Shown here piece after piece: positions 3,398 to 23,346 of a stretch of DNA of 24,642 nt (positions are counted from its first letter, which is position 1; each line of letters opens with the position of its first letter). The notes beneath the pieces were generated by a model. The model ran no database searches and was not told the DNA's origin. It saw only the letters and a program-made list of their open reading frames with translations. Origin of the DNA: a virus; IMG/VR virus record IMGVR_UViG_3300037840_000010, positions 1-24,642 of that record. One strand, given 5' to 3'. The translations under genes and the position numbers were made by a program.

Positions 3398-4531
3398 ATG
3401 AACCTCTCACCTTCGCTCCCCTCTCATGAGGCAGCACATTGCTTGGATGTGCCGTTTCTCGATTTGCGGGTAACAGACGCCGAAGAATATCGCGCTTTGC
3501 TTGGGCGCTTCATGCGCGTTTTGGATCACGGCCGCCTCGTCAACGGCCCCGAAGTCCGCGTATTCGAACAAGCCTTCGCCGCCCGCTGCAAACGAAGCTA
3601 CGGCATCGGCGTCGGTTCCGGAATGGACGCCCTCGTGCTGGCCTTGCGCGCGCTCCACATCGGCAAAGGCGACGAGGTCATAGTTCCGGCGCTGTCCTTC
3701 ATCGCGACCGCCAACGCCGTCCGCATGGTGGGCGCGGAGCCGATATTCTGCGACATAGCCGACGACTTGAATATCGACGTGAATCAAATCGAGGATCACA
3801 TCAGTCCCAGAACCAAGGTCATCATGCCGGTGCATTGGGCGGGGCGCATTTGCGATATGTCCGCAATAATCAATATTGCGGATCGACGCGGGCAGTATGT
3901 CGTCGCCGACGCTTCGCAATCCTTCGGCGCTTTGGTGAATGGCTATCCGCAAGGCGCTTGGGGTGACATGGCGTGTTTCAGCATGAACCCCATGAAAACC
4001 CTGGCCGCTCTTGGCGAAGCCGGGATGATCGTCACCAACGACAAAGAGATTTACGAACGCCTCGATCCGTTGCGTTATCAAGGGGTCTGGAACAAGGAAT
4101 ATTGCCACGAACTATCCGGCAATCATCGGCTCGATACCATCCAGGCGGCAATGCTGCTGGTGCGGCTTGATCGCGTCGATGATGTTTTACGAAAGCGCCG
4201 CGAGATTGCGGCGTTCTATGACACGCATCTGGCGGGTGTTGTCGAAGTCCCGCCGCAGGCGCCCTACGAAAAACTCGCATATTACACCTACACCATCCAA
4301 TGCGGCCACCGCAGTAAACTCAAAGCCTATCTGCAAGCCTGCGGCGTCGAAACCAAAATCCAGCATCCGGTTCTGATGCCGAATCAGCCGCTTTACAAAT
4401 CGACCGCCAAGGGCTGCTGGATCAATGCCGAAAAACTGATGAAGCGCGTTCTGTGCATTCCGTGCCATGAGAAGATGACCGACGCGCAGGTATGGCATGT
4501 GGTGAACAGCATCAAGGATTTTTACAAATGA
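3398..4531 (+). CDS. DegT/DnrJ/EryC1/StrS family PLP-dependent sugar aminotransferase
   Basis: This 377-residue protein has the normal length and motif order for the family, which transfers an amino group (usually from glutamate) to a keto nucleotide sugar. Visible motifs are GVGSGMDALVLAL (phosphate-binding, ~residues 71-83), GDEVIVPALSFIATANA, DASQSFGA with the cofactor-ring Asp at 171, and CFSMNPMKTLAALGEAGM with the Schiff-base Lys at 200, then GNHRLDTIQAAML. All key residues are present, so it should be active and cytosolic. It stands in a row with a WbuC-like cupin and a NeuD/PglD-like acyltransferase, so the product is probably acylated next. No nucleotide-sugar dehydratase or epimerase is in the window, so the keto sugar must come from the host or from genes outside. 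Whether it is a 3- or 4-aminotransferase cannot be told. Confidence 0.93.
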   Translation: MNLSPSLPSHEAAHCLDVPFLDLRVTDAEEYRALLGRFMRVLDHGRLVNGPEVRVFEQAFAARCKRSYGIGVGSGMDALVLALRALHIGKGDEVIVPALSFIATANAVRMVGAEPIFCDIADDLNIDVNQIEDHISPRTKVIMPVHWAGRICDMSAIINIADRRGQYVVADASQSFGALVNGYPQGAWGDMACFSMNPMKTLAALGEAGMIVTNDKEIYERLDPLRYQGVWNKEYCHELSGNHRLDTIQAAMLLVRLDRVDDVLRKRREIAAFYDTHLAGVVEVPPQAPYEKLAYYTYTIQCGHRSKLKAYLQACGVETKIQHPVLMPNQPLYKSTAKGCWINAEKLMKRVLCIPCHEKMTDAQVWHVVNSIKDFYK

Positions 4532-4605
4532 AGCGCATCCGAGAATTCTGGCAACGGCTGCGTGATCTTTATTATCTGATGGGGAATCTGGGAAAGTTGC
4601 CATGA
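4528..4605 (+). CDS. 25-codon mini-ORF coupled on both sides
   Basis: The ATG overlaps the aminotransferase stop (ATGA at 4528-4531), and its own TGA overlaps the cupin start (ATGA at 4602-4605). It encodes 25 residues with a basic, aromatic N-terminal helix (MKRIREFWQRLRDLYYLMG). The exact fit between two overlaps explains the otherwise empty gap and suggests that it carries ribosomes from one gene to the next. Whether the peptide has its own function is unknown. It could be a coupling device or a remnant of a longer gene. Confidence 0.5.
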   Translation: MKRIREFWQRLRDLYYLMGNLGKLP

Positions 4606-5087
4606 CCGCCGTATTCCGTAACGCAGGCCCCGTGATCGAAGTGGACGACGCCACTATCGACATGCTGATCGAGGCCGCAGGCGGCGAACCCAAGCGCCGC
4701 GCCAGGCTCAACCTGCACAATTCCGATGACGACCTGTTGCACGAAATGATAATTGCGTTCCGTGGTGATTCGCTCAACATGCCACATCGGCATGTGGGCA
4801 AGAGCGAATCCATGCACGTCATGCGAGGGCGTGTGCTGGTCGTTATGTTCGACGACCAAGGCAACGAAAGCCGCCGTATTATGCTTGGTGACCCTAGCTG
4901 GCACGCGCTCCCTACGGTATTCCGCATGGCCGCCCCGATCTGGCATACCGTTATTCCGCTCGATAACGTCGTAGTAGTTCACGAAACAACCAACGGACCG
5001 TTCATCCCCGGCAAGAACATGGAGATTCCGGAGTGGGCGCCGCCTGAAAATGAACTTGCGGCTTGGATAGAGGGACTGAAAGCATAA
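4602..5087 (+). CDS. WbuC-like cupin-fold metalloprotein
   Basis: This 161-residue protein matches from memory the WbuC group of cupins found in O-antigen loci: RRARLNLHNSDDD near residue 32, a first cupin motif MPHRHVGKSESMHVMRGRV with His62, His64 and Glu69 as likely metal ligands, a strand VVMFDDQGNESRR, then IWHTVIPL with His115, and a late NGPFIP and EWAPPENE. It is expected to be cytosolic and metal-binding. The biochemical role of WbuC proteins is not well defined; association with deoxy- or amino-sugar synthesis is known from gene neighbourhoods. Its place between the aminotransferase and the acyltransferase agrees with that. The stop shares one base with the next start (TAATG at 5085-5089). 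Confidence 0.85.
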   Translation: MTAVFRNAGPVIEVDDATIDMLIEAAGGEPKRRARLNLHNSDDDLLHEMIIAFRGDSLNMPHRHVGKSESMHVMRGRVLVVMFDDQGNESRRIMLGDPSWHALPTVFRMAAPIWHTVIPLDNVVVVHETTNGPFIPGKNMEIPEWAPPENELAAWIEGLKA

Positions 5088-5314
5088 TGCCAGTTTCCTT
5101 GCACCAAATGCGTGAATTGATGCTGCCGGGCTTAATGGCAATTCAATACGAAACGTTGCCGGTCCAATGGGCGACCATCTTTGCCAGCGAGGAAGTCGCT
5201 ATCCCGTCGCTTCCCGTGATTAGTCCTCAGATGGCACTGGCAATGGGTGCTGCTGCCGTTGTGATGAAAAACCCCGAAGTGTCCCGTCGTGGCTTATTTG
5301 GATGGTTCTCATGA
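5087..5314 (+). CDS. Small protein resembling the N-terminus of the phage's own major capsid protein (75 aa)
   Basis: Start ATG 5087 overlaps the cupin stop (TAATG) and the stop overlaps the next gene (ATGA at 5311). The first ~35 residues align with the major capsid protein encoded at 9321: MPVSLHQMRELMLPGL against MPVALANIRSELLPGL, then Y..LP.QW..IF against Y..IP.QW..VF. That gives 14 identities over 32 aligned positions with one two-residue gap. After that the protein diverges into a hydrophobic stretch (PQMALAMGAAAVVM) and ends RRGLFGWFS. The DNA is well diverged, so this is not a recent copy. It may be a capsid N-arm paralogue, an assembly modulator or a relic; no known family gives a function. 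The similarity is read directly from the two translations. Confidence 0.65.
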   Translation: MPVSLHQMRELMLPGLMAIQYETLPVQWATIFASEEVAIPSLPVISPQMALAMGAAAVVMKNPEVSRRGLFGWFS

Positions 5315-5523
5315 CAAAACCTCGTTTGCGCTGGAAGAAATTTGGCCGTGATCTGAGGCAGATGCGTCGGGATTGCGATTGGAGCATTCGGGAAATGGCC
5401 CGCAGAATAAAAATCAATCACTCCACTTATGTTCGGGCTGAAAAAGGCATGACGGTTGAGGCTGCGCATTTCCTGCGAATGTGCTACGGGTGCGATCTTA
5501 ACCCGCTGGATTACGTCCGATGA
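5311..5523 (+). CDS. XRE/Cro-type helix-turn-helix protein (70 aa)
   Basis: The ATG at 5311 overlaps the previous stop. Residues ~12-55 read as a lambda-repressor-like HTH: a first helix (GRDLRQMRRDCD), WSIREMARRIKI for helices 2 and turn, NHSTYVRAEKGM for the recognition helix, then helices 4-5 (VEAAHFLRMCYGCDLNPLDYV). The length is that of a bare DNA-binding domain, with no oligomerisation or peptidase domain. It is coupled (ATGA at 5520) to the acyltransferase gene. Being inside a late cassette rather than an early control region is unusual. It might control the sugar genes or host genes; target sites are not identifiable. Confidence 0.75.
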   Translation: MTKPRLRWKKFGRDLRQMRRDCDWSIREMARRIKINHSTYVRAEKGMTVEAAHFLRMCYGCDLNPLDYVR

Positions 5524-6224
5524 AAATCTTCACAGTCGGCGCCAAAGGCCACGCCCGTTTCTGCCGCCGCACTCTCCTGGGCGATGGCGAGAATTATTCA
5601 CCCTACAAGTTTCCCGTGGTGTTCGACGCCGATCCGGAAACGGTCAAGCCGTGGTCGGCCAGCACGTTGTACCACGATTGGGCGACTGCAGTGAGTCGAG
5701 CGCACGCCGAAGGCTGTACTGGATTTATGGTGGCCATCGGATCGAATGGCAAACGTCGCGCAGAAATTTCGGAGGATTTGGTATCGAGCGGCTTTCAGCC
5801 TGTACCCGTCATTCATCCCACATCCTACGTCAGCCGTTCCTCGATCTTCGGCGATGGAATGCAAATGCTGATTCGCTGCCACATCGGCGAGGAAGTCCGC
5901 ATCGGCAATTGGTGCATGATGCACGGCGCGTCTTTCGTGGAGCATGAAAGCGTGGTCGAGGACGGCGTCACCATCATGGCGGCAGCTTCCATCATGGGAA
6001 GCGCCGTCATCCGCCGCCACGCAACCATCGGCGGCGGTTCAACGATTCTCGGCGTTGAAGTCGGCGAAGGTGCCACGGTCGGCGCGGGGGCGCTGGTGAC
6101 CAAGGACGTGCCGCCGGGAATTACGGTTGTGGGCGTGCCGGCGAAGCCGATGCAGAGAATGCGCGCGGTGCTTAATGAATCGGGGTATGAGCCTGTTGTG
6201 ACGTATCAGCCACTTGCCGAGTAA
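5520..6224 (+). CDS. NeuD/PglD-like sugar O/N-acyltransferase (left-handed beta-helix)
   Basis: This 234-residue protein fits the NeuD/PglD/VioB family in length and order. It has a short Rossmann-like N-terminal part (FTVGAKGHARF, then FMVAIGSNGKRR at ~69-80) that binds the nucleotide sugar, and from ~residue 93 a hexapeptide-repeat left-handed beta-helix (FGDGMQMLI, IGEEVRIGN, VEDGVTIMA, VGEGATVGAGALV) closing with GVPAKPM. The conserved catalytic His is probably His142 in FVEHESV, followed by AAASIMG. The enzyme would transfer an acyl group from acyl-CoA to an amino (or hydroxyl) sugar; pairing with the DegT-type aminotransferase at 3398 favours an amino group, as in the PglE/PglD and PerA/PerB pairs. 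Substrate identity is inference. Confidence 0.9.
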   Translation: MKIFTVGAKGHARFCRRTLLGDGENYSPYKFPVVFDADPETVKPWSASTLYHDWATAVSRAHAEGCTGFMVAIGSNGKRRAEISEDLVSSGFQPVPVIHPTSYVSRSSIFGDGMQMLIRCHIGEEVRIGNWCMMHGASFVEHESVVEDGVTIMAAASIMGSAVIRRHATIGGGSTILGVEVGEGATVGAGALVTKDVPPGITVVGVPAKPMQRMRAVLNESGYEPVVTYQPLAE

Positions 6225-9320: not shown

Positions 9321-10235
9321 ATGCCCGTCGCATTAGCTAATATCCGCTCCGAACTTCTGCCCGGACTGTTCGACGTTCGCGGAAGTTACGACATGATCCC
9401 GCGACAGTGGGACAAGGTCTTTACCACCCACAAGTCGAACATGGCGGTCGAACGCTCCACACAAATGGCGTTCGTGGCCCTTCCCTATCTGAAAGACGAA
9501 GGCGCCGCTACGCAGTTCGACAACAACGCTGGTGAAAGATTCACTTGGGCATTTATTCACCTGGAGGTCGCCCTTGGGTACGCGATCACCAGAAAAGCCA
9601 TTGACGACAACCTCTATAAGGCACAATTCAATCCTACCAATCTCAAGTTGCAAGAGGCATTCGCCCAATTCAAGGAAATCCAAGGCGCGAACATCCTCAA
9701 CCTCGGGACCACCCCCAATGCCGCAATCATCGGCGACGGTGTTGCGCTTTTCTCCGCCGCTCACCCTTACGACGGCGGCACCTGGGCCAACACGTCAACC
9801 ACGCCAAAGAGCTTGAACGAATCGACGCTGCTTGCTGATATGACCAACGTCAGAACGCAGTTCGTCAACGAGCGCGGCCTTCGTATTCTTTCAAGAGCGC
9901 GTCGCCTTATCGTTCCGCCGAACCTCGAACCCATCGCAATTCGGCTCACCAAAACCGAACTGCGCCCTGGCACCGCCGATAACGACGTGAACGCCATCCT
10001 CACGTTGAGCGGCGGTCTGCCAGAGGGATTTATCGTGTTGGACTTCCTCACGTCCAACTTCGCTTGGTTCCTCACCACGAATATCGAGGGGCTGATTCAT
10101 ATGCTGAGAATACCATATGAGTCTGATATGTGGGTCGATAACGTAACGGATAATCTCCTAGTTAAAAGTTACGAAAGGTACTCATTCGGTTACAATGATC
10201 CGAGGGCTTGTTGGGGCGAATTCCCAACTTCGTGA
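9321..10235 (+). CDS. Major capsid protein (HK97-fold, Mu gpT-like group)
   Basis: The gene starts at ATG 9321 behind a strong GGAGAGGG. The 304-residue product opens IRSELLPGLFDV..SYDMIPRQWDKVF, the N-arm helix pattern of Mu gpT-like capsid proteins. It continues with a beta strand (MAFVALPYLKDEG), FTWAFIHLEVALGYAITRKAIDD (the long spine helix region), the family block GDGVALFSAAHPYDGGTWAN (~135-154), NERGLRILSRARRLIVPPNL, and a late DNVTDNLLVKSYERYSFGYNDPR. The length is in the usual range. The capsid self-assembles in the cytosol; there is no separate prohead protease in the window. Its N-terminus is mirrored by the small protein at 5087. Confidence 0.88.
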   Translation: MPVALANIRSELLPGLFDVRGSYDMIPRQWDKVFTTHKSNMAVERSTQMAFVALPYLKDEGAATQFDNNAGERFTWAFIHLEVALGYAITRKAIDDNLYKAQFNPTNLKLQEAFAQFKEIQGANILNLGTTPNAAIIGDGVALFSAAHPYDGGTWANTSTTPKSLNESTLLADMTNVRTQFVNERGLRILSRARRLIVPPNLEPIAIRLTKTELRPGTADNDVNAILTLSGGLPEGFIVLDFLTSNFAWFLTTNIEGLIHMLRIPYESDMWVDNVTDNLLVKSYERYSFGYNDPRACWGEFPTS

Positions 10236-10286
10236 GAAAAAACAACAATATAGGAAGATAGTAACAAAAGTAGAGACAACCGCTGA

Positions 10287-10308
10287 AAGGTATTGACGGT
10301 TATACCTT
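10287..10308 (+). other. Hairpin between capsid and endonuclease genes
   Basis: AAGGTAT (10287-10293) and ATACCTT (10302-10308) are exact complements around an 8-base loop. They lie in a 115-bp gap (10236-10350) that is visibly richer in A and T than the genes around it. The position just after the capsid gene suggests a pause site or a weak terminator that would lower expression of downstream genes, but there is no T-run. No convincing promoter or small gene is seen in the gap. Confidence 0.4.
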
Positions 10309-10350
10309 GTTATGAAAGACTGATGCTGTTTCGTAGCAAGGAGAAACCCG

Positions 10351-11526
10351 ATGGCGCGCATGATTACCCTGACCCACGAGCACCTTTTACAAGTTTTGGA
10401 CTACGATCCGGCGACGGGCGTGTTCACTTGGAAGGTGCGAGCCTCAAATCGTCTCAAAGTAGGAGACCGTGCTGGCGCGGTCGGAACGCTGGGCTATCGT
10501 CTGATTATGATTGGCGGCGAAAAATTCCAGGCAAGCCGTTTGGCGATCTTTTATGTTCGTGGCGAATGGCCGAAGGCCGACGTTAAGTTCCTAAATGAAA
10601 ATATGGACGATTGTTCCATTGATAATTTGCAGGAAATGTCGCGAATCGAAGCAGCGCGCCTTCGGAGCGCCCCCGCAAGCAATACGAGCGGCCTTCGCGG
10701 AGTAAGTCCCGCGCCGCGTGGTAAGTGGAAATCCGCGATCTGTGCGAACTACAAACAGATTATGTTGGGCGTATTCGATACCAAGGAACAGGCCTCTGCG
10801 ATCTACGAACATGCAATGTCGATTCTTAGCGGGGCCAAGACGCCACAGGAAGCGGACGCTGCCGCCGACGAAATTATACAATATCGCCGCAAGCGCGTAG
10901 CATGGGAACGGCTGCGACGAACGGAACGCCCTCATGTGTGGGCGTCCTTTGAACAGTTCGCGGCCGATATTGGCCGTATGGAATCGGACGAAAGCACGGT
11001 CGCCGCTGCGGACGAAAGCCGGCCTATCGCGCTGGACAATTTCAAATGGCTGTTGCGCCCACAAGGTCACTTCGACCGTTCAACCAAGGAAGGTCGCGCG
11101 GCTTATGCAAAAGCTTACCGCGATGCCAACCCCGGACGCTGGCGCCATGCTCATCTGCAGAAAAACTACGGCACCACGGAACTTGATTACCGCGAATTGC
11201 TCGCTAAGCAGAATGGCGTCTGTGCCATTTGCGGTCGCCCCGAAGTGAACCCGCGCGTTGCAGAAAAGCGGTCTCTGTCGTTCGATCATGACCACGAGGC
11301 TGAGGAAGCGACGGGCGAAAAGAAAATCCGAGGGCTGCTTTGCGGTAACTGCAATCACGGTCTCGGCATGTTCGGCAATGATCGGCCCGACAGGCTACGC
11401 GCCGCCGCCGACTATCTCGACACCTACTACGGCCGCAAGCGTCCTTGGTCAGTGCCGATCATCGAAGAAATCACGCATCTTCCCATCGGCCAGAAAATCC
11501 TAATGGAGGCCTCCCCAAATGGGTGA
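10351..11526 (+). CDS. Composite homing-type endonuclease: degenerate HNH + AP2-like + endonuclease VII domain
   Basis: ATG 10351 follows AAGGAG by 10 bases. Four blocks follow. Residues ~12-98 look like an HNH_3 module (DPATGVFTWK ... SRLAIFYVRGEWPKADVKFLNENMDDCSIDNLQE), but the usual His before RLA is Ser and the usual DH before the N is KF, so its active site seems lost. Residues ~111-157 look AP2-like (TSGLRGVSPAPRGKWKSAI). Residues ~195-237 (WASFEQFAADIG ... PIALDNFKWL) resemble a motif common in phage HNH proteins, also decayed. Residues ~275-360 form an intact endonuclease VII domain: CAIC at 291-294, DHDH at 312-315, RGLLCGNCN with C331 and C334, then GLGMFGND. It should cut DNA and is probably a free-standing homing endonuclease. 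Its stop overlaps the next structural gene. Confidence 0.85.
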   Translation: MARMITLTHEHLLQVLDYDPATGVFTWKVRASNRLKVGDRAGAVGTLGYRLIMIGGEKFQASRLAIFYVRGEWPKADVKFLNENMDDCSIDNLQEMSRIEAARLRSAPASNTSGLRGVSPAPRGKWKSAICANYKQIMLGVFDTKEQASAIYEHAMSILSGAKTPQEADAAADEIIQYRRKRVAWERLRRTERPHVWASFEQFAADIGRMESDESTVAAADESRPIALDNFKWLLRPQGHFDRSTKEGRAAYAKAYRDANPGRWRHAHLQKNYGTTELDYRELLAKQNGVCAICGRPEVNPRVAEKRSLSFDHDHEAEEATGEKKIRGLLCGNCNHGLGMFGNDRPDRLRAAADYLDTYYGRKRPWSVPIIEEITHLPIGQKILMEASPNG

Positions 11527-12805
11527 CACCAACTTGCGAGGCCCGCTGACCAGCATGGGGGCGCTTGAGGTCGAAGCCGGTACGGCAGCGACGATTGAGC
11601 CTTTCGACGGCCCCAGCGGTTTCTATCAATCCGTTGCGATGCTCGATCCGCGCAGCGCGCCGTTCGCCAAGGACGGCACCACGCCAGGGCGTTGTCCTGC
11701 ATTCATCAACAATCCGGACTTCTGGGCATTCGACAACAAGCCGCAGGCCACCAATGCTTCGGCGCTCGCGGCGTCGGCGGTGCAGACCAGCTTGGTTGCG
11801 TTCCCGCTTGCGACCACGCAAGTCTCCAATCCGAACGCGGGTTCACCCTTCATCGCGGTTGGCGTGCCGATTCTGCCGCAAGGCACCACGACCATCGTCA
11901 ACACGATTGCGCTCGACTTCGGGTTCTCGACAGGAACCACCACGGCCAATTCATCGACGGTTGCGGTTTACGATTCCACCAAGTTCACGGTGGGGCAGTG
12001 GATCGCCATCGGTGGTGCGGGCGCGGCGAACCAAGCCACGTTCTTTACGCAAGTGCAGACCATCAGCACGTCGAACACGACCAGCATCACAGTGTTGCCA
12101 TTGCCGCCGGCTTCAACTTCGTCGGCTCCGATTGGCCAGGCCAATGTGTTCGGCGCTGGACTGTATCCGCCGACTTATAATTTCGGGGCATCAACTCCTG
12201 CTGCGACCTACGTCAATCCCAATGTGCAAGCGGGATTGTTGCGGGTTCACAACCCCTCCGAAATGCTCTCCCGCAACGTGTCGATCACGCTGGCGACGGG
12301 CGGCGTGGCGACTGCGGTGAACTTCATCGTGTACGGCTATGACGTTTGGCGCGCACCGATGACGGAACTAATCACATCGCCAGCCACGACTTCGGCGACC
12401 GTGACCTATGGCCAGAAGGCGTTCAAGTATATCTCGTCGGTCGTGATGCAGAGTGCTTCTGCGAGCGGCAATTCGTACGCGGTAGGTATCGGTGACGTGT
12501 TCGGCTTCCCGTTTCGCGCCGATGAATGGGAACAAACCAATATCTATTGGGCCGGTACGGCTTCGGCGAATTCCACGGGCTTTACGGCTTGTGCGACTGC
12601 TGTGCCTGCTACCAATACCACGGGCGACACGCGCGGCACGGTGCAGATTGGGGCGGCTGGTCGTGGATCGGCTGTCACCGGCACGCTGTCGGCGAATGGT
12701 ACATCACGGCTTGCGGCAATTCAGAATCTTGGCGTATGGAACGTCGTGTTCACCACTCCCAATAATCCGGTGCCGATGTTCGGCGTCGCACAGTCCACGA
12801 CCTGA
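11519..12805 (+). CDS. Virion structural protein, beta-rich (428 aa)
   Basis: ATG 11519 lies inside the last codons of the endonuclease gene with GGAGG 10-15 bases upstream. The product begins with a defined segment (GPSGFYQSVAMLDPRSAPF ... FINNPDFWAFDN) and then is nearly all Ser/Thr/Ala/Gly/Val strands, including STVAVYDSTKFTVGQWIAIG, which reads as a small beta domain. Near the end are GIGDVFGFPFRADEWEQTN and LAAIQNLGVWNVVFTTPN. The protein has no enzymatic motif, signal peptide or membrane span. Its place after the capsid gene fits a capsid-associated or neck/tail structural protein. I do not recognise a named family. Confidence 0.7.
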   Translation: MGDTNLRGPLTSMGALEVEAGTAATIEPFDGPSGFYQSVAMLDPRSAPFAKDGTTPGRCPAFINNPDFWAFDNKPQATNASALAASAVQTSLVAFPLATTQVSNPNAGSPFIAVGVPILPQGTTTIVNTIALDFGFSTGTTTANSSTVAVYDSTKFTVGQWIAIGGAGAANQATFFTQVQTISTSNTTSITVLPLPPASTSSAPIGQANVFGAGLYPPTYNFGASTPAATYVNPNVQAGLLRVHNPSEMLSRNVSITLATGGVATAVNFIVYGYDVWRAPMTELITSPATTSATVTYGQKAFKYISSVVMQSASASGNSYAVGIGDVFGFPFRADEWEQTNIYWAGTASANSTGFTACATAVPATNTTGDTRGTVQIGAAGRGSAVTGTLSANGTSRLAAIQNLGVWNVVFTTPNNPVPMFGVAQSTT

Positions 12806-14780: not shown

Positions 14781-15728
14781 ATGGCCGACGCTAACGGCAA
14801 CAACTCGCGCATACCGGCCGGGGCACTCTTTTCCACGGCGTTTCCGAATGCGGGCGTGGCGGCTGGCGCGATCAGTTCCAGCGGAAACATGGTGCCGCTC
14901 AACGCCGACCCCAATGGCAATCTGCTGGTCGCCGGAAACTTTACCGCGACGCTAGGTGGTACAACCGCCGTCAATGTCACGCTGGTTGGCGGCAGTGCGA
15001 TAGTCCTTGGCCAAGCGGCTATGGCGTCGTCGTTCCCGGTGGTCATCGCCTCGAATCAATCCGCCATTCCTGTCACGGGGAGTTTTTCCGCGACTAATCC
15101 CGCCGTGGGGACGACGGGGACAACTGCGCCGACGAGTGCGGATTTTGTCGGCGTCGATATCGGCGGCAATCTTCAAGGATGGTCCGGGTTAGCCGTCGTC
15201 AACGCCACGGCCTATGCCGGTCGCATTGATCTTTCGTCGCTCAACGGTACGGCGTTAAGTATCGGCCAGCAGGTCATGACGGCCTCGATTCCCGTCGTCC
15301 TGGCGTCGAATCAATCGAATGTGACGACGGTACTGGGGGCGGCACTCCCTGCCGGCACGAATCCAATCGGCACGGTCAGCGCCCTGCAGGTTGGCACCTG
15401 GACCATAAACTTTTCCGGCGCTGGTACTATGCTCCGGGGCAATGCAACGGCGTCAAGCACGGCAGCGGTTGTTATCATCGCGGCGCAAAACGCCACCACG
15501 AAAATCTATGTGACCGGCCTGCAGTTCGGTAACACGTCCGGCTCGACGCTGATCGTGACTTTGAACGACACGGCGGCTTCGCAATTCATTGTGCCGTCCG
15601 GTGGTGGTAGTAATATCGACTTCCTGATTCCGCTTGCCTTGGCCACTGCAAATTCTTCGCTGACCTTTGCGCCATCGCTTGCGGTATCCACGGTTTACGC
15701 CAATGCTCAAGGCTACGGGGCAAGTTGA
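14781..15728 (+). CDS. Repeat-containing fiber-like structural protein (315 aa)
   Basis: The protein is built of beta-type repeats: FPVVIASNQSAIPVTGSFSA near residue 85, and LSIGQQVMTASIPVVLASNQ near 160, with AALPAGTNPIGTVSALQVG after it. Very similar units occur five times in the protein at 22054. The last ~80 residues form a separate domain (KIYVTGLQFGNTSGSTLIVT ... SLTFAPSLAVSTVYANAQGY) that matches the C-terminus of the protein at 23356. So this gene joins a shaft module from one fiber to a tip module of another. It is probably a tail fiber or spike component. The stop shares a base with the next start (TGATG). Confidence 0.72.
   Translation: MADANGNNSRIPAGALFSTAFPNAGVAAGAISSSGNMVPLNADPNGNLLVAGNFTATLGGTTAVNVTLVGGSAIVLGQAAMASSFPVVIASNQSAIPVTGSFSATNPAVGTTGTTAPTSADFVGVDIGGNLQGWSGLAVVNATAYAGRIDLSSLNGTALSIGQQVMTASIPVVLASNQSNVTTVLGAALPAGTNPIGTVSALQVGTWTINFSGAGTMLRGNATASSTAAVVIIAAQNATTKIYVTGLQFGNTSGSTLIVTLNDTAASQFIVPSGGGSNIDFLIPLALATANSSLTFAPSLAVSTVYANAQGYGAS
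15253..15380 (+). repeat. Copy A of a dispersed coding repeat
   Basis: This stretch aligns without gaps to 22535-22662 (offset 7282). Its first 16 bases CGTTAAGTATCGGCCA are identical, and most later changes are in third positions. It encodes SIGQQ.MTASIPVVLA..QS followed by ALPAGTN.IGTVS in both genes. It is a shared fiber module and a possible site of recombination. Confidence 0.75.
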
Positions 15729-21559: not shown

Positions 21560-22057
21560 ATGCGCCCGCACCCACGACGAGCAAGAACGAACGCAACCGA
21601 CCCGGAAGCCTGGGGGACGTGCGACCGCAGCGGCTTCGTCCTCAATCAAAAGGACATGGTCTGGCAATATGATTGGCAGGGCACGCAGCTCGTGAACAAA
21701 AGGGTGCTGGTTGCACCCGATATGTGGGACGAACCGCAGCGGCAGCTTGGCACCATCATCCTGCCGCCCGATCCTGTCTCGATTCCGAACGCGCGCATCG
21801 AACCTTACCCAATCGACGAATATTGGATGTTCGAGTGCGAGGGGCTTCCCGCCGCTATCTGGGAAAAGGAAGGTTCCGAAGCCGCGATCACGCTGGAATA
21901 CGGCATCTACGATAATGACGGAATGTTCCCGGCAGCAGGACCGTTCCCAACATCCGGATTCCCGGTGCCGGTGCCGCCGATTACCGGCGCGGAACTGGAT
22001 TTCTCCAAGGCGTCAAACTCGCAATACATTCCGCTGATCGCAGGGGGCTTTGCATGA
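21560..22057 (+). CDS. Conserved phage structural-region protein, partner of the adaptor gene (165 aa)
   Basis: ATG 21560 is three bases after the adaptor stop, without a strong ribosome binding site. The product reads RPHPRRARTNATDPEAWGTC, DRSGFVLNQKDMVWQYDWQG, LVNKRVLVAPDMWDEPQ and TIILPPDPVSIPNARIEPY. This order (aWGtCDrsGF ... W.yDW.G..L.n.r.LV ... D.PQ...r.iiLPPDP..i.NaRpEpY) is common directly after the adaptor gene in related phages. Some relatives carry a Cys pair that would bind metal at the CDR and LV positions; here only one Cys is kept. The role in the virion is unknown. It overlaps the next gene (ATGA at 22054). Confidence 0.78.
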   Translation: MRPHPRRARTNATDPEAWGTCDRSGFVLNQKDMVWQYDWQGTQLVNKRVLVAPDMWDEPQRQLGTIILPPDPVSIPNARIEPYPIDEYWMFECEGLPAAIWEKEGSEAAITLEYGIYDNDGMFPAAGPFPTSGFPVPVPPITGAELDFSKASNSQYIPLIAGGFA

Positions 22058-23346
22058 CCTTCAAGGTTCTCGATGCTTCCGGCAATACCACATTCATTCA
22101 GGCGCTATCCATCAACGCCGGAACGGTGTTGACGCAGTCTGTACCGACGAATGCTCTTGGAACGGCGATGGTCGGGCAAACCACAATGGCCGGATCATTG
22201 CCGGTTGTCATTGCATCCGATCAATCGAATTTTACCGCCGTACTCAGCGGTTCTTTGCCCGCTGGCACGAATGCCATCGGCACGGTGTCAATTACGCAGG
22301 CGTTGCCGGCGGGGACGAATGCGCTTGGCACAGTCAGCGTGTTGCAGGTCGCGACATGGCTAACGAATATCACGCAGGTCGGCGGCACGCCGTTGGCGCT
22401 CGGCCAAGCCAACATGACGGCTTCGATTCCCGTCGTTATCGCGTCGAATCAATCCGCTATTCCAGTGTCGGGCACGTTCACCGCGACGTTCGGCGGCACG
22501 ACCAACGTCAATCTTATACAGATAGGCGGCACATCGTTAAGTATCGGCCAACAGCACATGACGGCTTCGATTCCGGTCGTGCTGGCGACCGATCAATCTA
22601 GCGTAACGACGATCATCGGTGCCGCGCTCCCCGCCGGAACAAACGCCATCGGCACCGTGTCAGTCACAGGCGCGCTTCCTGCTGGAACAAATGCGCTAGG
22701 GACAGTGTCCGTCACGGGGACGCCGTTGTTCAATCTGGTGCAAGTCGGCGGCACTACGATTACGTTGGGTTCAAAGGTTTCCGCAACATCCATCCCTGTC
22801 GTCATTGCGTCCGATCAGACCGCAATCCCGGTGTCCGGCAGTTTCACCGCGACATTCGGCGGCACGACCAACGTCAATCTGGTGCAAGTCGGGGGCACGG
22901 CCTTCTCGCTCGGGTCGAAAGTTTCTGCAACGTCGATTTCCGTGGTGCTGGCGTCCGACCAGGCGACGGTATCGGTGGCGGGTTCGTTGACTGCAAACTT
23001 TCAGGCGGCGACTTCCGCTGCCGTTGTCGCAACTTCGTCTGCGGTCGCCCCTGTCGCCGTCAAGGCAGCATCGGGCACGCTTTATGGTGTCAGCCTGTAT
23101 TGCAACAACACGACCAATCCGGTGTTCCTGCGGCTCTATAATCTCGCCACGGGATCGGTGAACGCTACGTCCGTCCCGAATGTCATCATCGGCGTTCCGC
23201 CTGGTGATTCACGCGAAATGCAACTACCTGTCGGCGGCGTGACATTCAATACCGCGATCAGTTATCAAATAACGCAACTCGGCGTAGCCAACGACACGAC
23301 GGCGGTAAACGCAAACGATCTGCTCGGCTGGATCACTTACTTCTAG
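22054..23346 (+). CDS. Repeat-built tail fiber-like protein (430 aa)
   Basis: This protein is a regular array of beta repeats. SIPVV(I/L)A(S/T)(D/N)Q-type units occur at residues 48, 124, 172, 246 and 294, so the spacing alternates 76, 48, 74, 48. LPAGTNA(I/L)GTVS occurs four times (68, 84, 192, 208), and TATFGGTTNVNL twice (143, 265). After ~residue 330 comes a distinct C-terminal domain (GTLYGVSLYCNNTTNPVFLR ... FNTAISYQITQLG) ending in GWITYF. The regular register suggests a beta-helical or beta-prism shaft with a globular tip, as in trimeric tail fibers. It shares modules with the protein at 14781. Membrane and export signals are absent. Confidence 0.78.
   Translation: MTFKVLDASGNTTFIQALSINAGTVLTQSVPTNALGTAMVGQTTMAGSLPVVIASDQSNFTAVLSGSLPAGTNAIGTVSITQALPAGTNALGTVSVLQVATWLTNITQVGGTPLALGQANMTASIPVVIASNQSAIPVSGTFTATFGGTTNVNLIQIGGTSLSIGQQHMTASIPVVLATDQSSVTTIIGAALPAGTNAIGTVSVTGALPAGTNALGTVSVTGTPLFNLVQVGGTTITLGSKVSATSIPVVIASDQTAIPVSGSFTATFGGTTNVNLVQVGGTAFSLGSKVSATSISVVLASDQATVSVAGSLTANFQAATSAAVVATSSAVAPVAVKAASGTLYGVSLYCNNTTNPVFLRLYNLATGSVNATSVPNVIIGVPPGDSREMQLPVGGVTFNTAISYQITQLGVANDTTAVNANDLLGWITYF
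22477..22514 (+). repeat. Direct repeat within fiber gene, copy 1 (copy 2 at 22843-22880)
   Basis: The 38 bases encoding FTATFGGTTNVNL recur at 22843-22880 with one difference (ACGTTC against ACATTC). The near identity, including third positions, points to recent duplication or gene conversion inside the gene. Confidence 0.85.
22535..22662 (+). repeat. Copy B of a dispersed coding repeat
   Basis: Ungapped counterpart of 15253-15380 in the fiber-like gene 7.3 kb upstream. It encodes the SIGQQHMTASIPVVLATDQS and ALPAGTNAIGTVS modules. Most differences between the copies are synonymous. Confidence 0.75.

Follow-up and report, generated by a model that had tools for sequence, protein, structure and literature searches.

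We consider it probable that the gene separating the major capsid gene of this phage from the structural-region gene that follows encodes a free-standing homing endonuclease, resident at the capsid gene's 3' end, in which an HNH domain has been retired to an accessory role and an endonuclease VII domain acts as the engine. The evidence comprises the anatomy of the protein, the loss of catalytic residues, a fixed insertion site with empty and remnant alleles, selection, mosaicism and a leader hairpin, all computed here for the window (a complete IMG/VR contig, 24,642 bases long) and its relatives. The features on which the argument depends are the following:

9321 to 10235, plus strand: major capsid protein gene (PHROG 371 major head protein, E 2e-6)
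10305 to 10341, plus strand: predicted leader hairpin, its 3' arm holding most of the endonuclease Shine-Dalgarno (z -2.8)
10338 to 10343, plus strand: endonuclease Shine-Dalgarno AAGGAG (from the sequence; pairing probability 0.71)
10351 to 11526, plus strand: chimeric endonuclease gene, 391 amino acids (ORF translation; Pfam, PHROG; AlphaFold)
10372 to 10662, plus strand: HNH_3 / I-HmuI fold without catalytic residues, residues 8-104 (Pfam HNH_3, PHROG 99, 1u3e)
10585 to 10590, plus strand: K79-F80 replacing the catalytic Asp-His (I-HmuI D74-H75; alignments)
10651 to 10653, plus strand: A101 replacing the third active-site residue (I-HmuI N96; alignments)
10678 to 10836, plus strand: predicted AP2-like DNA-binding domain, residues 110-162 (PDB 7et4, by sequence and structure)
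10933 to 11055, plus strand: degenerate second phage HNH-type module, W.SFE.F...N[FY].W, residues 195-235 (HHalign)
11146 to 11430, plus strand: intact endonuclease VII domain, residues 266-360 (Pfam E 3.5e-18; T4 endonuclease VII structures)
11431 to 11523, plus strand: exchangeable C-terminal tail (closest to that of contig L116, 67%)
11505 to 11509, plus strand: GGAGG, Shine-Dalgarno serving the next gene and embedded in the endonuclease frame
11519 to 12805, plus strand: next structural-region gene, its start overlapping the endonuclease stop

Domain architecture of the chimeric endonuclease

Translation confirmed the 391-residue open reading frame at 10351-11526 that had been described in an earlier, sequence-only reading of this DNA. 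The gene is free-standing (no intron is present) and co-directional with its neighbours, the upstream one encoding a product 62% identical to the annotated major capsid protein of MW202675; tRNA and Rfam searches of the window matched no family.

The N-terminal part of the protein is recognizable as HNH-derived by both its sequence and its beta-beta-alpha fold. Pfam HNH_3 matches at residues 61-102 (E 1.9e-6, just above the cut-off), PHROG 99 (HNH) spans residues 2-182, and in the AlphaFold model (53 family sequences as input; mean pLDDT 89.7) residues 8-108, which enclose the stretch for which an HNH-like fold had been proposed (residues 12-98), match I-HmuI (1u3e) with Z 8.1 and an rmsd of 2.6 Å over 92 residues; middling Z values are common in the structural comparison used, and for the HNH part fold and sequence agree. 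The profile of stand-alone relatives likewise matches 1u3e (E 1e-6), their Asp-His aligning with that of I-HmuI, and a constant offset of 5 residues places K79, F80 and A101 of the window protein at I-HmuI D74, H75 and N96. The catalytic roles of these three residues were reportedly established by Shen and colleagues in 2004, N96 being said to serve as the third metal ligand. The sequence-only reading had seen decay of the HNH_3-like block in two substitutions, Lys-Phe for the expected Asp-His and Ser for the expected His: the former is upheld (K79-F80), while the latter, although Ser62 does occupy the usual His position of 'HRL', was rejected as a mark of decay because 15/69 active-looking stand-alone domains also have no His there. 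The loss of the third metal ligand (N96 to A101) had escaped that reading. Judged by alignment, the diagnostic losses are the replacement of Asp-His by K/R-F/Y/P and the loss of the Asn.

Two further modules separate this domain (hereafter the dead HNH domain) from the C-terminal nuclease. An AP2-like domain had been suspected from the sequence, and it is borne out, as a sheet of three strands plus a helix, by the best-matching PDB chain, the plant AP2 domain 7et4 (E 2.8e-4 at residues 112-161 in the sequence search; Z 8.5 for residues 110-178 in the structure comparison); Pfam AP2 gave no match in the window protein and a below-cut-off match in one relative (L141). The SFEQF...NFKW block, when searched alone, matched no Pfam or PHROG entry. 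A profile of ten relatives matched the module W.sFenF.aDMG..P..LDRIdNDGnYePgNCRWAT, found in relatives of PHROG 3377 (annotated as HNH endonuclease), with an HHalign probability of 96% and E 1.7e-9, values that may be flattered by a comparison set chosen with a loose motif filter, and the best of the column-shuffled controls (n=30) reached a probability of 6%. The Asp-Arg and Asn-Asp-Gly positions of the module are gone in the profile alignment, in line with the earlier claim that the block had lost its acidic positions.

The endonuclease VII domain is complete. Pfam Endonuclease_7 matches at residues 268-357 (E 3.5e-18), residues 267-373 match T4 endonuclease VII (2qnf) with Z 6.4 in the structure comparison, and C291, C294, D312, H313, H315, R327, C331, C334 and N335 (the DHHRN motif) are kept; the CAIC, DHDH and CGNCN elements listed as intact beforehand are thus all retained together with R327. 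The DHHRN residues are present in every fusion checked. As the fold is that of T4 gp49, the gene could be a structural-region Holliday-junction resolvase and not a mobile element. We regard this as very improbable: the motif is C-terminal (residues 266-360 of 391), as in the endonuclease clade of PMC6083498 and unlike its resolvase clade, and not at the N-terminus as in the resolvases of the T4 gp49 type; PHROG 423, which agrees with gp49 in length and in where the motif lies, is a more distant match than PHROG 2914/2633; AP2 and HNH-derived modules accompany it; and the gene is patchily present at one site for which empty alleles exist (see below).

The HNH active site is lost in all fusions listed

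Relatives were gathered through a scan with the capsid protein and, independently, through endonuclease alignments. At least 58 distinct proteins join an HNH_3-type domain to an endonuclease VII domain. Asp-His is retained in none of the 58 distinct fusions among the matches listed (the searches were seeded with family members and the best 80 matches kept, so that rare live-HNH fusions could be missed), and the endonuclease VII domain is present in all of them. The replacing pairs are chiefly RF (14), KF (8) and RP (5), together with TF, RY, FF, QF and others, and in one listed fusion the His alone persists (RH). The approximately 108 stand-alone HNH_3 proteins listed carry Asp-His or one close variant, bar a few that were unscored at these columns. 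Since, among the matches listed, intact HNH residues occur in stand-alone relatives only and the same loss recurs in all 58 listed fusions, a sequencing error is excluded as its source. The first data set gave the same picture, with Asp-His in 0/28 fused versus 68/68 stand-alone domains (Fisher 8e-25, ignoring ancestry) and the Asn in 1/28 versus 66/68.

In a domain tree built without the active-site columns the fused state needed three changes, and a single fused clade was compatible with the tree (AU p 0.59). The residue losses probably stem from one or few origins, as judged from this phylogeny, and the 58 fusions therefore do not represent 58 independent events. The loss is thus shared and of old date, and cases such as L141 and L165 may be later additions.

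An IMG/VR exact-peptide scan with the window protein alone gave no match, bacterial genomes yielded endonuclease VII domains only (the fusion was not found), and among phage isolates and plasmids no match covered 80% of the protein. Candidates set aside include Felixounavirus matches, where HNH and endonuclease VII are encoded by individual genes placed around a split DNA polymerase, and the proteins of Klebsiella MT09 and Streptomyces Shawty, which are plain endonuclease VII proteins.

Several architectures at the margin of the family were also recorded. Tandem dead HNH domains precede the endonuclease VII domain in L165:2297-3298, L306:2884-3816 and L249:2923-3924; in L141:3998-5281 a live endonuclease VII domain is followed by a second copy with Asp-Arg instead of Asp-His; and the terminase of Gordonia phage Affeca (L203:514-2901) has a weak similarity to the query's endonuclease VII region. 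In Vibrio phage D167 (L207:1719-2510) an N-terminal HNH_3-like stretch without Asp-His (VRNIDG) is followed by a live HNH_3-AP2 enzyme, an arrangement that suggests, from its sequence, that retired HNH domains may exist beyond endonuclease VII fusions.

A single address at the end of the capsid gene

All 58 listed fusions start between -97 and +151 nt from the end of a capsid gene homologue. Among close relatives of the window (capsid identity 83-95%) the site is variously occupied: by long fusions (L005, L012, L082, L083, L084, L087, L088 and L116), by stand-alone HNH enzymes with Asp-His intact (L007, L008, L013 and L016), or by nothing (L002, L006, L009, L010 and L011), the empty sites having 16-41 nt from the capsid stop to the start of the next gene. 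The gap in L009 holds a 3' remnant of an HNH-AP2 gene similar to the one in L007. In more distant relatives the resident is a short fusion that has no AP2 domain or, in L068, endonuclease VII by itself. Across the capsid-scanned contigs with enough sequence, 11/71 have an occupied site (6 with a fusion, 4 with an HNH enzyme and 1 with endonuclease VII), and no such genes stand at the site in six phage genomes, mostly of isolates, whose capsid genes are related. Patchy presence at one fixed address, with intact empty alleles, is the pattern that a homing gene leaves.

We also considered whether homing co-conversion could explain the conservation of the capsid gene and rejected the idea, because synonymous positions are saturated and conservation is lowest at the 3' end; that the capsid gene shows no trace of co-conversion counts against the homing reading. 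A resident of the same site in L013 (7035-7829), an HNH_3-AP2 protein with Asp-His intact, ends in a CEIC...RYHTT...RGMLCLDCW tail; tentatively, this may be a degraded endonuclease VII domain and a mirror image of the window gene (Pfam E 0.027, with a low-confidence C-terminal model).

Selection on the dead domain and exchange of modules

On the assumption that the dead HNH domain is passive baggage in the course of being lost, with the AP2 and endonuclease VII domains doing all of the work, the absence of its catalytic residues from every listed fusion would be explained, and relaxed conservation of the fold would be expected as well. The fold is instead predicted with high confidence, it is present in all listed fusions, and it is often the best-conserved part of the protein: the dead HNH domain is 75% identical between the window and L082 (endonuclease VII 45%), 80% between L083 and L116 (54%) and 69% between L088 and L116 (38%), with the opposite order in L005-L084, where endonuclease VII is better conserved than HNH. 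pN/pS amounts to 0.21-0.25 in the window-L082 and L083-L116 pairs, and to 0.21-0.35 when L088-L116 is added. Furthermore, the short fusions dropped both the AP2 domain and the middle block and still retained the dead HNH domain, which drift would not have spared. We therefore find passive baggage unlikely; the substitution patterns argue for purifying selection on the dead HNH domain, and this selection is often stricter than that on the live domain. Because it is under such selection and keeps its fold, the best reading of the sequences and models is that the old module would be retained for DNA recognition.

The modules of the window protein have different closest relatives: residues 1-277 are nearest to L082, and the endonuclease VII domain is nearest to L083 (56%). 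This discordance is supported at individual sites (Fisher 2.5e-8 and 2.6e-7), and a breakpoint falls near residue 278 (permutation p 5e-4). Moreover, the last 92 nt of the stand-alone live HNH gene of L008 and of the L088 fusion are 90% identical, while the gene bodies are far apart. Such sequence mosaics indicate that catalytic and tail modules have been exchanged by recombination between residents of the site. Both the mosaicism and the 3' end common to a stand-alone HNH gene and a fusion speak for the change of catalytic domain that the sequence-only reading had envisaged, and its broader idea, of a homing enzyme that changed its nuclease and kept old modules for recognition, appears well supported by sequence comparison and structural modelling.

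A leader hairpin over the ribosome binding site

Outside the scope of that reading, we observed a predicted hairpin in the stretch between the capsid and endonuclease genes (window 10236-10350), which recurs in the leaders of 55 related genes. Within 25 fusion leaders the mean folding z was -3.85 (versus -0.39 in 187 other leaders of the same contigs; p 3e-13) and the pairing of the Shine-Dalgarno 0.87 (versus 0.53 in these controls; p 2e-9), and the difference in z was replicated on 30 new fusions (-3.43 versus -0.60; p 4e-11). In the short-fusion clade 8/13 stem pairs show compensatory change, the observed covariation score being unmatched by any shuffle, with slid versions reaching at most one third of it. 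The ribosome site is thus sequestered in a predicted leader hairpin of the type known from T4 homing genes, in which such a structure occludes the site on read-through transcripts (PMC2988022). In many relatives a TTGACA-like and TATAAT-like pair lies inside the hairpin and would start RNA there, freeing the ribosome site; this promoter-like pair is enriched over the family (z 5.1; p 6e-6; p 0.01 in further fusions). The window's own candidate inside the hairpin is weak (p 0.41), and scanning the window with a simple sigma70 consensus gave no promoter. Because the outer transcript would be one reading through from the capsid gene, the hairpin would be expected to keep the nuclease low during capsid expression.

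Proposed mechanism and relation to known homing systems

Homing enzymes are commonly regarded as combinations of catalytic and binding modules that can be exchanged, the usual binding modules being small zinc-finger, helix-turn-helix or AP2 units. In the lineage described here, of at least 58 distinct fusions, a whole nuclease domain appears to have been turned into an accessory module, and the active stand-alone versions, empty sites and remnant at one locus offer a natural series from nuclease to recognition domain. We propose that in a clade of tailed phages the gene has its address at the capsid gene's 3' end, and that it probably descends from an I-HmuI-type HNH_3-AP2 homing enzyme whose C-terminus was joined by an endonuclease VII (DHHRN) cassette. 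The HNH active site would afterwards have lost all three catalytic residues (with Asp-His usually giving way to K/R-F/Y/P), its fold staying under selection most likely for docking the protein on its target alongside AP2. The endonuclease VII domain would cut the capsid-junction DNA of gene-free phages, and repair of the break would then carry the gene over; modules would be swapped among residents of the same site, and on mRNA reading through from the capsid gene the leader hairpin would mask the ribosome site. What we infer is thus that the dead domain recognizes DNA, that endonuclease VII cleaves it, that the gene homes and that its translation is controlled.

A main role as a DNA-binding repressor, or in nuclease interference with co-infecting phages, to which homing would be subordinate, would have precedents, given that I-TevI is also an autorepressor (PMC2988022) and that homing-type domains have been co-opted in phage conflicts (PMC10448857). 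Every fusion checked has an intact endonuclease VII site, which makes repression alone unlikely, and we give such a role little credence. Returning to a homing enzyme as the preferred reading, a bolder extension of it, towards which we remain more doubtful than inclined, would have successive homing endonucleases swap engines at one address, an inactivated HNH domain (Asp-His to basic-aromatic) persisting as a DNA-recognition module. If true, replacing the nuclease and then retiring the old one would be a general escape from loss for homing genes, retirement would have happened more than once in some lineages (the tandem dead HNH domains of L165, L306 and L249), and L013 would be a possible reverse case, with a live HNH domain and a degraded endonuclease VII tail.

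Endonuclease VII homing enzymes and domain swapping among T5orf172 genes are already known; we found no description in the open-access papers searched of an HNH fold retired to an accessory domain beside endonuclease VII. The homing family with a C-terminal endonuclease VII motif was founded by F-CphI of cyanophage S-PM2, which shares with the window protein a C-terminal endonuclease VII domain (CxxC, DHxH, R and CxxCN) encoded by a free-standing phage gene; F-CphI is, however, much shorter (ORF177), has no described HNH-derived or AP2 module and targets a psbA intron site, whereas the window gene lies at a capsid junction (PMC6083498). The fold of residues 8-108 is that of I-HmuI and the HNH_3-AP2 enzymes (PHROG 99), with AP2 next in order as in stand-alone relatives, but the window protein has none of the three HNH active-site residues and an extra nuclease domain follows. 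The domain shuffling described for T5orf172 homing genes (PMC10448857) resembles the present case in that nuclease and binding modules are exchanged between resident homing genes, and differs in that their binding modules are zinc fingers, while here one accessory module is a former nuclease.

The locus also bears on the life of a selfish gene next to a capsid gene and under a putative RNA switch. Hairpins over the ribosome site are shared with I-TevI, I-TevII, I-TevIII, segB and Aeh1 mobE (PMC2988022); unlike in these T4-type genes, the upstream gene here is that of the capsid, and the promoter-like elements of the relatives are of the sigma70 type, so that timing would differ. T4 segD, between genes 23 (capsid) and 24, is likewise a free-standing endonuclease gene adjoining a capsid gene, but it is of the GIY-YIG type and in the opposite orientation (PMC2988022).

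Other features of the window

The structural region of the phage also contains a sugar-modification cassette (window 3398-6224) encoding a DegT/DnrJ/EryC1 aminotransferase (Pfam E 2e-97), a small DUF6016-like protein and a hexapeptide acyltransferase, with a small helix-turn-helix protein lying between the cassette genes. Furthermore, repeated protein segments (ALPAGTNAIGTVSV..., ASIPVVIASDQS...) were found at window 14973-15376 and 22258-22982; these segments lie 7.3 kb apart, have a DNA identity of 60-77% and are common to the ORFs at 14781-15728 and 22054-23346, which are probable repeat-bearing tail or surface proteins.
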